Assembly: GCA_946481335.1 (NCBI GenBank)
Contig: CAMLMR010000010.1
Span: forward strand, 1-32,372
Direction of reading: 5' to 3'
Source of the DNA: an uncultured Lactobacillus sp.
GTDB taxonomy: Bacteria > Bacillota > Bacilli > Lactobacillales > Lactobacillaceae
Length of the DNA: 32,372 nucleotides
Shown in pieces: positions 13,764 through 32,372 of this stretch. The stretch's first letter is position 1, and each line of letters starts with the position of its first letter. The notes beneath the pieces were generated by a model. That model was given only the letters and a program-made list of their open reading frames with translations, ran no database searches and was not told the DNA's origin. Position numbers and translations under genes: made by a program.

Positions 13764-13799
13764 TGTTTTTACCTCCAATTCATGGTCGTTACATTAAAA

Positions 13800-13815
13800 T
13801 GTTTCACATGAAACA
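13800..13815. promoter_or_regulatory. parS-like 16-mer (one mismatch to consensus) in the gyrB-gyrA gap
   Basis: TGTTTCACATGAAACA versus parS TGTTNCACGTGAAACA. Its reverse complement is identical to the site at 25501-25516. Confidence 0.6.
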
Positions 13816-19868: not shown

Positions 19869-21212
19869 TTATCTCTCTAATGTTTCCTTTAGTTCTTTAA
19901 TTTGTTCCTTGATTGTTGAATCTGATTGAACTGCTTCTGCAATTTTATCGTAAGCATGAATAACAGTTGTATGATCCTTACCACCAAACGCGGTTCCAAT
20001 CTTTGGAAGAGAACTGTTGGTTAAGGTACGGCTTAAATACATTGCTATTTGACGAGGGATAACAATTGTTTTCACACGTTTTTTCCCTTTTAAATCGTCT
20101 ATAGAAACGTTGTAGTAAGTTGAAACTGATTTAATGATGTTCTCAACCGTAATTTCAGGTTTTGAATCGCCTCGATTAAGGCCGCGCAAGGCTTCAGAGA
20201 CTAAATCAGTTGTAATTGGAACTTTTTTGAAGTTAGCAAATGCATGTACACGTGACAATGCACCTTCTAGCTCACGAACGTTTGAATCAAATTGACCAGC
20301 TATGTAGTTAAGCGTATCTGGGGGAACTTGAATCCCGTCTGCTTCTGCTTTCGCACGCAAGATAGCAATTCTAGTTTCTAAGTCTGGAGGGGTAATATCT
20401 ACCGGAAGTCCCCAGGCAAATCGAGAAACCAAACGATCTTGTAATTTGGCAATTTCGTTTGGTAGACGATCAGAAGTTAAGACAATTTGCTTTTTATTTT
20501 CATACAAATCATTGAATGTATGGAAGAATTCTTCTTGAGTTCCATCCTTATCAGCAAAGAATTGAACATCATCAACTAGCAATGCATCAACGTTTCTGTA
20601 TTCACGTCTGAATGCTTCGGTTTCATTATTTTGAATCGCATTAATGAAATCGTTCGTAAATGATTCACTAGTTACGTACATAATGTTTGCACTTGGATTG
20701 TCTTGCAAAATTTTGTTACCAATTGCGTGCATCAAGTGGGTCTTTCCTAATCCAACACCTCCGTACAAAAGAAGTGGGTTATACATTTTTCCTGGATCTT
20801 CGGAAACAACTAGCGCCGCTGCATGCGCCATTTGATTTCCTTTACCGATAACGAAGGATTCGAATGTATAGTTAGGATTTAGATGACTGTTTTGTAAGAA
20901 TTCATTAACTTTTTCGCTGCTTGAATTCTCTTTTGCCGCGTCATCTTGCTGAGCTGAATTACTACTCTCTCCTTCTACAATTAACTTTGGAACGATATCC
21001 CTTTTAGTTATTTGGTATGAATACTCTACGAAAGAGTCTTCTAACTTATCTTCCCAATAATCACGGTGGAGAGGAGATGGAAGTTCTAGCGTTAGCTCAT
21101 TGCCGACTAAACTAATGGGTTTAACAGTATCAATCCATGTTGAATACGTTGTAGTGGAGTAATTTTTTTCAAAAGCTTCACTGATTGCTTCCCATAATGA
21201 GTCTTTATCCAT
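19869..21212 (-). CDS. dnaA: Chromosomal replication initiator DnaA
   Basis: NPLLLYGGVGLGKTHLMHAIGN (Walker A), DALLVDDVQFF, SRFAWGLPVDITPPD, and a C-terminal DNA-binding domain TIVIPRQIAMYLSRTLTNSSLPKIGTAFGGKDHTTVIHAYDKI. Confidence 0.99.
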   Translation of the reverse strand: MDKDSLWEAISEAFEKNYSTTTYSTWIDTVKPISLVGNELTLELPSPLHRDYWEDKLEDSFVEYSYQITKRDIVPKLIVEGESSNSAQQDDAAKENSSSEKVNEFLQNSHLNPNYTFESFVIGKGNQMAHAAALVVSEDPGKMYNPLLLYGGVGLGKTHLMHAIGNKILQDNPSANIMYVTSESFTNDFINAIQNNETEAFRREYRNVDALLVDDVQFFADKDGTQEEFFHTFNDLYENKKQIVLTSDRLPNEIAKLQDRLVSRFAWGLPVDITPPDLETRIAILRAKAEADGIQVPPDTLNYIAGQFDSNVRELEGALSRVHAFANFKKVPITTDLVSEALRGLNRGDSKPEITVENIIKSVSTYYNVSIDDLKGKKRVKTIVIPRQIAMYLSRTLTNSSLPKIGTAFGGKDHTTVIHAYDKIAEAVQSDSTIKEQIKELKETLER

Positions 21213-25500: not shown

Positions 25501-25516
25501 TGTTTCATGTGAAACA
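25501..25516. promoter_or_regulatory. parS-like 16-mer (one mismatch to consensus) in the mnmE-mnmG gap
   Basis: TGTTTCATGTGAAACA versus parS TGTTNCACGTGAAACA. Identical to the reverse complement of 13800-13815. Confidence 0.6.
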
Positions 25517-25537
25517 TTTTAAAATGGAGGAGAACAA

Positions 25538-28182: not shown

Positions 28183-28821
28183 ATGGAAAAATCTACCAAA
28201 AATACAAAAAATAAATTTTTAAAAGAATGCCTTAGCTGGCTAATCTACCTAGTTGTACTAGGAGGAATTTACCTAACAATTACTCATTTCTTTACAATGG
28301 CGACTGTTGATGGAACATCAATGGATCCAAACTTATACAATGGAGAAAAGATGTTGGTATTAAAACAATCTGAAGTCAAGCGTAATAGCGTCATCATCTT
28401 TGATGCGCATGGTGAAGATCCGGAGGCTACCGCCAATGATTATTATGTAAAACGTGTTATCGGACTACCAGGTGATACTGTTTCATACAAAGATGGTAAG
28501 TTATACGTTAACAACAAGCTTGTTGACCAAAGCTTCATCAGTAAAAAAGAACTAAATGTAGGAACGCGTTATAAATTTAATGGTGACACTATCAAAAACT
28601 GGGATATTTCTAAATTATCTAGCACCAAATGGGTATACAACCAAGATGCAAAGGTTGTACCAAAGGGTGAATACTTTGTTCTAGGTGATAACCGAAGTGT
28701 CTCAAACGACAGTAGATACTGGGGATTTGTTAAGGAATCTAAGGTATTAGGAGTTGCTAAGTTATTCCCATGGTCTGGTACTGCTAAGCACCGTCATAAT
28801 ATTAATGATTTAGCTGAGTAG
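28183..28821 (+). CDS. lepB: Signal peptidase I (copy 1)
   Basis: N-terminal TM, catalytic Ser in GTSMDPNLYNGEKMLV, catalytic Lys in DYYVKRVIGLPGD, and FVLGDNRSVSNDSRYWGFV. Confidence 0.93.
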   Translation: MEKSTKNTKNKFLKECLSWLIYLVVLGGIYLTITHFFTMATVDGTSMDPNLYNGEKMLVLKQSEVKRNSVIIFDAHGEDPEATANDYYVKRVIGLPGDTVSYKDGKLYVNNKLVDQSFISKKELNVGTRYKFNGDTIKNWDISKLSSTKWVYNQDAKVVPKGEYFVLGDNRSVSNDSRYWGFVKESKVLGVAKLFPWSGTAKHRHNINDLAE

Positions 28822-28836
28822 AGGGGAATTTAATCC

Positions 28837-29472
28837 ATGAAATTAACGGAGAAACAAAAAGGTTTAATATCATGGTTTATCTACCTGTTATTCTTGGTAC
28901 TAGCCTGGTTTACAATTAAGAGTTTTGCGACGGTAGTAAAGGTTGACGGTCATTCAATGGACCCCAACTTACATACTGGACAACGGGTTCTAGTGATGAA
29001 AAGGGATGCAGTCAAACGCAATAGCGTGATTGTCTTTGATGCTCACGGTGAGGATCCGACCAAGACTACCACCACGTACTATGTAAAGCGTGTGGTTGGG
29101 ATTCCTGGCGATAAAATCGTTTATAAAGACGGTAAAATATATATAAATAACAAGCTATATAAGCAAAACTATATTAGCAAAGAGCAAGTTAGTGTTGGAA
29201 CACGCTATAAATTTCAAAGTGATGTCATTAAGAACTGGGATATTGCTAAGTTATCTAAAGAAAAATGGGTAGATGACCAGGACGAGAAGGTTGTCCCTAA
29301 AGGGATGTACTTCGTTTTAGGCGATAATCGATCAATCTCAAATGACAGCCGTTATTGGGGATTCGTTGAAAAGAAAAAGGTATTAGGTGTTGTATATGCA
29401 TTCCCATGGTCCGGAAATGCAACACAGCGTTATAACATCAATCAATTAAAAAATAAAAAAGCGTTGAATTAA
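28837..29472 (+). CDS. lepB: Signal peptidase I (copy 2, tandem paralogue)
   Basis: Ser in GHSMDPNLHTGQRVLV, Lys in TYYVKRVVGIPGD, and FVLGDNRSISNDSRYWGFV. Very similar to the upstream copy along its length. Confidence 0.93.
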   Translation: MKLTEKQKGLISWFIYLLFLVLAWFTIKSFATVVKVDGHSMDPNLHTGQRVLVMKRDAVKRNSVIVFDAHGEDPTKTTTTYYVKRVVGIPGDKIVYKDGKIYINNKLYKQNYISKEQVSVGTRYKFQSDVIKNWDIAKLSKEKWVDDQDEKVVPKGMYFVLGDNRSISNDSRYWGFVEKKKVLGVVYAFPWSGNATQRYNINQLKNKKALN

Positions 29473-31663: not shown

Positions 31664-32372
31664 ATGGCTCATACTAAGTTAACGCAAGCAGACTTTGACG
31701 CAATGCGTGAACAATATGACAAAAATCCAAAAAATAAGGTATTGCAACGTTCCGTTATGAAAAACGGTATCAACAATACTGCAAGGGATAACCGAGTTGT
31801 GGCTAATTTAAACCACACATACTCCGTTGAAATCGACACTGGGAAGGTCTCAAACCAAAAGCGTTCGGGCCGTTGCTGGTTATTCTCATTGTTAAATGTT
31901 TTAAAGCACGACTTTGCGAAACGCTATGACGTAAAGGATTTTGAATTGTCACAAAGTTACCTATTCTTCTGGGATAAGGTAGAACGTGCCAACATCTTTT
32001 ACGACCGAATTATCGATACTGCTGACAAGCCTTTCGATGATCGTGAACTTCGCTGTTACCTAGCTGCACCTGGTGCAGACGGTGGTGAATGGGGGATGGC
32101 GGTTGCACTGGTACAAAAGTATGGTGTAATGCCAACTTCTGCCTTTCCAGAAAGCAACGTTACAGAAAATACAGCTGATTTAAAGGAAGTATTAAACCGT
32201 AAACTACGCCGTGATGCGATGGTATTACGCGACATAATTCATGCCGGTAAAAGTGATTCTGAAATCGCTGAAAAGCGTAAGGAAATGCTAAAAGAAGTTT
32301 ACAAAATTGCCGGTTTTGCATGTGGTGTTCCACGTGAAACATTTGACTTTGAATACCGTGATGACAAGCAAA
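31664..32372 (+). CDS. pepC: Aminopeptidase C (C1B peptidase, bleomycin hydrolase family), 3' end truncated
   Basis: MAHTKLTQADFDAMREQYDKNPKNKVLQRSVMKNGI...QKRSGRCWLFSLLNVL (catalytic Cys region) and QSYLFFWDKVERAN. Confidence 0.93.
   Translation, partial: MAHTKLTQADFDAMREQYDKNPKNKVLQRSVMKNGINNTARDNRVVANLNHTYSVEIDTGKVSNQKRSGRCWLFSLLNVLKHDFAKRYDVKDFELSQSYLFFWDKVERANIFYDRIIDTADKPFDDRELRCYLAAPGADGGEWGMAVALVQKYGVMPTSAFPESNVTENTADLKEVLNRKLRRDAMVLRDIIHAGKSDSEIAEKRKEMLKEVYKIAGFACGVPRETFDFEYRDDKQ
32326..32341. promoter_or_regulatory. parS centromere-like site (ParB binding)
   Basis: TGTTCCACGTGAAACA is an exact match to the Gram-positive parS consensus TGTTNCACGTGAAACA, inside pepC (codes for G-V-P-R-E-T-F). 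Confidence 0.88.

Follow-up and report, generated by a model that had tools for sequence, protein, structure and literature searches.

The window (the whole stretch of 32,372 nucleotides analyzed here) encodes dnaA at positions 19869 to 21212, with the gyrB-gyrA gap on one side and the mnmE-mnmG gap on the other. Each gap holds a copy of the parS-like palindrome TGTTTCATGTGAAACA, which has a TG center. The gyrB-gyrA copy lies at 13800 to 13815 on the minus strand and the mnmE-mnmG copy at 25501 to 25516 on the plus strand, 7.4 kb to the left and 4.3 kb to the right of where dnaA starts, respectively. The palindrome differs from canonical parS (TGTTTCACGTGAAACA) by one base, giving a CATGTG center instead of CACGTG. 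The coordinates, strands, and one-base difference given in the original prediction were all exact on re-check, as was its 22-nucleotide sequence common to both gaps (TGTTTCATGTGAAACATTTTAA; positions 13794 to 13815 on the minus strand and 25501 to 25522 on the plus strand). A further parS, which has the canonical center (TGTTCCACGTGAAACA) and is absent from the original prediction, is found at 32326 to 32341 on the plus strand. It lies 11.1 kb to the right of the start of dnaA, inside the pepC frame, where it is read as V-P-R-E-T. Scanning the window with up to three mismatches returned six matches, against 1.9 expected in shuffled sequences. Right of mnmG, two signal peptidase I genes are arranged in tandem (28183 to 29472).

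The source genome (G000) comprises 1.35 Mb in 89 contigs, with 97.9% completeness and a GC content of 38%. The original prediction had proposed counting the 16-mer genome-wide relative to oriC, and the count revealed no scatter: three exact copies of TGTTTCATGTGAAACA are present, all within 14 kb of dnaA, while 0.0017 copies are expected from composition in 1.35 Mb. The third copy is located on contig C21, the first 55 positions of which are identical to the last 55 bases of the window contig (window 32318 to 32372). This overlap makes the two contigs neighbors on the chromosome, and the copy corresponds to window coordinate 35166, 14 kb from dnaA. Due to the same overlap, the parS at 32326 is scored twice in raw genome searches. 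A canonical copy of TGTTTCACGTGAAACA was identified on contig C72, with flanks resembling those of the -24.7-kb site of a relative (G004). The origin region includes five sites, at approximately -24.7 kb (C72, placed by orthology with G004), -7.4 kb (gyrB-gyrA), +4.3 kb (mnmE-mnmG), +11.1 kb (pepC), and +14.0 kb (C21), and the genome mixes CATGTG and CACGTG forms.

Comparison across the genus (g1, 16 genomes) identified exact TGTTTCATGTGAAACA copies in 15 of the 16. The gap alignments that the original prediction had suggested as a check found the site retained rather than absent, in 16/16 genomes at gyrB-gyrA and in 15/16 at mnmE-mnmG. The exception, G009, carries a one-mismatch copy (TGTTTCATGTGAAACG) at the mnmE-mnmG position, at a matching distance from dnaA. 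Among divergent members of the genus, the outer 14 bases never vary, while identity in the intergenic sequence next to the sites is 50% and 41%. In 14 genomes, the dnaA contig itself carries exact copies, 47 in total, and none of these is more than 66 kb from dnaA; the single-contig 1.29-Mb genome G015 is among the 14. Further copies sit between unrelated genes near the origin. The two genomes with the most distant DnaA, deepest in the genus (G012 and G014), carry canonical CACGTG at both gaps, which indicates that the reported sites are orthologous to textbook parS. Together with the clustering of copies around dnaA, these canonical counterparts bear out the part of the original prediction that placed ParB-type sites on both arms of the origin. 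In the mnmE-mnmG gap of G010 (L131) and G008 (L132), we also observed tandem parS-like palindromes, TGTTTCACGTGAAACA followed by TGTTTTACATGAAACA.

A survey with the outer bases fixed and the center left free recovered 65 sites in the genus, with CG at 8, TG or CA at 57, and no other center. The CATGTG variant is thus the majority parS form in the genus. A given orthologous position can hold a CG, a TG, or a CA center in different species. On the gyrB-gyrA coding strand, one group of genomes has CATGTG, another has CACATG (G005, G006, G007, G008, G009, and G010), and a third has CACGTG; at mnmE-mnmG, the center is CG in G008, G010, G012, and G014 and flipped in G015. The T is found in either half of the site but never in both among the 65 sites, although 12.5 TA centers would be expected if the halves changed independently. 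Across eight representative species, the excess of one-sided centers has a P value of 2e-4, which is only indicative, given some dependence among sites and among species. We also considered whether the asymmetric base has a fixed direction with respect to replication and rejected this (21 leading and 26 lagging among 47 copies; P = 0.56). The original prediction correctly described the two window copies as having the same orientation relative to transcription; since the strand that carries the T changes from species to species, with no bias to either replication strand, this shared orientation is incidental.

The pepC gene extends from 31664 to the contig end, and its canonical parS is in frame. 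The 16-mer is coded by GGTGTTCCACGTGAAACATTY in 15 of the 16 genus genomes, with no synonymous change in any of the copies listed (19 rows, counting one place on overlapping contigs twice), among them second copies at a distance of 1.3 kb. The encoded GVPRETF motif was absent from 45 other genomes searched with the same pattern. Solved relatives (aminopeptidase C, 4k7c, and human bleomycin hydrolase) have G-N-P-P, in the form GNPP(E/T), where pepC has GVPRETF. It seems that a centromere site has been built into PepC and has reshaped one of its motifs.

The genome encodes SMC and one ParB-family protein, the latter in an RsmG-ParA-ParB cluster on contig C1 (L089). This cluster is situated away from the origin, with parB approximately 238 kb from dnaA in the closed genome G015. 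The protein possesses GKSR, a conserved N, and GQAR, which correspond to the parS contacts seen in the Caulobacter structure (PMC7383237), and its R173 and G201 are in the parS-specific state. The recognition helix and GQAR, compared by eye, are alike in the CATGTG-rich genus g1 and the virtually CACGTG-only genus g55, which suggests that center preference is not written in those residues, and we rejected them as the cause of the difference between genera.

At the family level, 116 of 151 Lactobacillaceae genomes contain one or more sites matching the outer consensus. The centers in these 116 genomes are CATGTG (191), CACGTG (185), and others (16), and some of the last group may be chance matches. 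CATATG was found in two g43 genomes, in one of which (G178) it lies approximately 30 kb from dnaA. The share of CATGTG, counted among genomes analyzed together with their parB, is 1/44 in g55, 3/24 in g17, 47/61 in g16, 16/17 in g14, and 12/12 in g43. A site occupies both gaps in g43 and the mnmE-mnmG gap in g14; no site was found within approximately 10 kb of dnaA in Agrilactobacillus and one Lactobacillus. CATGTG centers near dnaA were also identified in Shewanella and Vibrio (TGTTCCATGTGGAACA and TGTTTCATGTGGAACA), in another gammaproteobacterium, and twice in a cyanobacterial metagenome-assembled genome (loci L050, L052, L059, L073, L074, and L078), so the variant is not restricted to the Lactobacillaceae. 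TGTTTCATGTGAAACA was not found printed in the literature searched, and an earlier notice in the main parS survey (Livny et al. 2007) is possible; none of six CATGTG or CACATG cores was found in the parS literature searched. What is new is the pattern: CATGTG is as common as CACGTG in the family, other centers are rare, and genera differ sharply, in step with neither base composition nor any visible change in the ParB recognition helix.

Judged from sequence and genomic context, both palindromes are very likely chromosomal parS sites and putative nucleation sites for ParB. Their single mismatch falls within the two that comparative work on parS accepts (PMC10197239), their copies cluster at the origin, the only ParB of the genome lies beside ParA and carries the parS-contacting residues, and the site is conserved beyond its surroundings. 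The CACGTG core that defines a canonical parS is intact in pepC and altered at both reported positions. The altered center that most sites in the genus carry offers a useful natural test of ParB tolerance and is not a new kind of element. In a ParB dimer, each of the two recognition modules would read one half-site of the 16 bp; going by ParBs studied elsewhere, the protein would then close as a CTP clamp and spread. The clamped protein would serve ParA and SMC, as in studied systems, to organize and segregate new origins.

ParB would be expected to bind both CACGTG and CATGTG centers. We give roughly even weight to the hypothesis that it needs one perfect half (GTTTCAC) and tolerates T in place of the innermost C of the other. 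Mutation would then turn CACGTG into CATGTG or CACATG, and the doubly changed CATATG would mostly be removed by selection. The half-site of Pseudomonas aeruginosa ParB is GTTCCAC or GTTTCAC (PMC10419367), which means that CATGTG leaves one half perfect and alters the last base of the other. In the same species, changes in both arms impair binding more than changes that leave one arm intact, and affinity depends on an intact CACGTG core (PMC4368675), so CATGTG could be weak. The combination of one perfect and one tolerant half fits both the toggling of the center and the rarity of CATATG, and the occurrence of CATATG at least twice in g43 indicates that the doubly changed center is not absolutely excluded. 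The half-site rule alone leaves the near-exclusive use of CACGTG in g55 and g17 without explanation. Alternatively, the one-sided center itself may be preferred in many Lactobacillaceae, with ParB loading there as well or better through parts outside the recognition helix, such that the centromere sequence switches between lineages with the DNA-reading residues unchanged; we consider this unlikely.

Other accounts of the center were weighed against parS tolerance. CATGTG could be a weaker parS kept on purpose, with a mix of strong and weak sites setting the local loading of ParB and SMC. Such grading would agree with the presence of both forms in G000, the reduced binding of P. aeruginosa parS sites with core changes (PMC4368675), and the differences in strength among natural parS sites of Bacillus subtilis (PMC8357415). 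However, the dependence of the center on species at a given orthologous position suggests that no site is held weak or strong, and G004, G006, and G015 carry only CATGTG copies of the TGTTTCA-TGAAACA form; we regard deliberate grading as somewhat unlikely. It is quite improbable that the change, a C-to-T transition, reflects only mutational or restriction pressure on CACGTG (AT bias or site avoidance) without tolerance by ParB. Avoidance of CACGTG as a restriction site is rejected by its observed/expected ratio of 1.13 elsewhere in the genus, i.e., no avoidance. Base composition is rejected by the lack of correlation between the CATGTG share and parB GC3 (rho = -0.11 over 89 genomes and -0.02 over genera), with g16 showing 77% CATGTG despite a GC3 of 0.66. 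Unconstrained mutation also predicts appreciable CATATG, against 0/65 seen in the genus. Mutation or restriction as the sole cause is not supported, while AT-biased mutation can contribute within the parS reading.

The original prediction also raised an RNA or regulatory element common to the gyrase and MnmEG operons. Such an element, whether an RNA hairpin or a transcription factor operator, we now consider highly improbable. Both window copies do follow a stop codon and precede a Shine-Dalgarno sequence, with matching orientation, and the gyrB-gyrA gap transcript is predicted to form a hairpin of -7.4 kcal/mol (z = -1.7), but shuffled sequences fold as well as the mnmE-mnmG gap (z = 0.02). 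Predicted hairpins were weak overall (z-scores from 0.02 to -2.1), and RNA folding was discarded as an explanation. At orthologous gaps of other species, the asymmetric base is found on the opposite strand, and the remaining copies occupy unrelated intergenic places, restricted to the origin region regardless of gene. At mnmE-mnmG, close relatives have ACATTTTTAATGG where the 22-mer would run, and its last six bases are not kept, which argues against a function of the 22-mer beyond the 16 bp. Noc, the nucleoid occlusion protein, is a paralogue of ParB, and many genomes of the family contain a second ParB-like match, which speaks for a Noc site or a ParB with Noc-like specificity. The Noc-type half of the original prediction did not hold up: G000 has no second match, which makes Noc unlikely in this genome, and its single ParB-family protein has the parS-specific R and G. 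In each half of the Noc site, positions 1 and 6 differ from parS (PMC7383237); both are unchanged at the reported sites, and a Noc-type element is extremely improbable.

These findings bear on parS more generally: scans and engineering usually treat it as an invariant, perfect palindrome. In the Lactobacillaceae, approximately 190 natural sites depart from the palindrome at its dyad, mostly in a single half, and the orthologous positions concerned change state from species to species. Related ParBs whose recognition helices look the same by eye accompany nearly all CACGTG in one genus and nearly all CATGTG in another. Such natural pairs make the rule for the parS center, and its role in ParB loading, directly testable. 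Scans for perfect parS matches would miss most of the sites in the genus.

Among known systems, the chromosomal parS of Bacillota (TGTTNCACGTGAAACA type, with ParABS and SMC) is alike in its 16-bp length, its identical outer 14 bases, its clustering around dnaA, the presence of ParA, ParB, and SMC in the genome, and the use of both intergenic and coding sites. In contrast, the center here is TG/CA rather than CG, the palindrome is broken at the dyad, and parAB is far from dnaA. The imperfect sites parS5 to parS10 of P. aeruginosa (PMC4368675) include core-changed examples, such as TGTTCTACATGGAACA, that are bound by ParB in vitro. Those sites are minor, of low affinity, mostly dispersed, and with two mismatches, whereas the one-mismatch center is the main origin-proximal form here. 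Relative to half-parS (GTTTCAC or GTTCCAC; PMC10419367), the CATGTG parS holds exactly one perfect GTTTCAC half, and its second half is kept except for the last base in all sites. The Noc binding site is likewise a 16-bp palindrome but is read by a ParB paralogue, which a ParB-family search did not detect in the 97.9% complete G000, and its bases 1 and 6 in either half are not those of parS.
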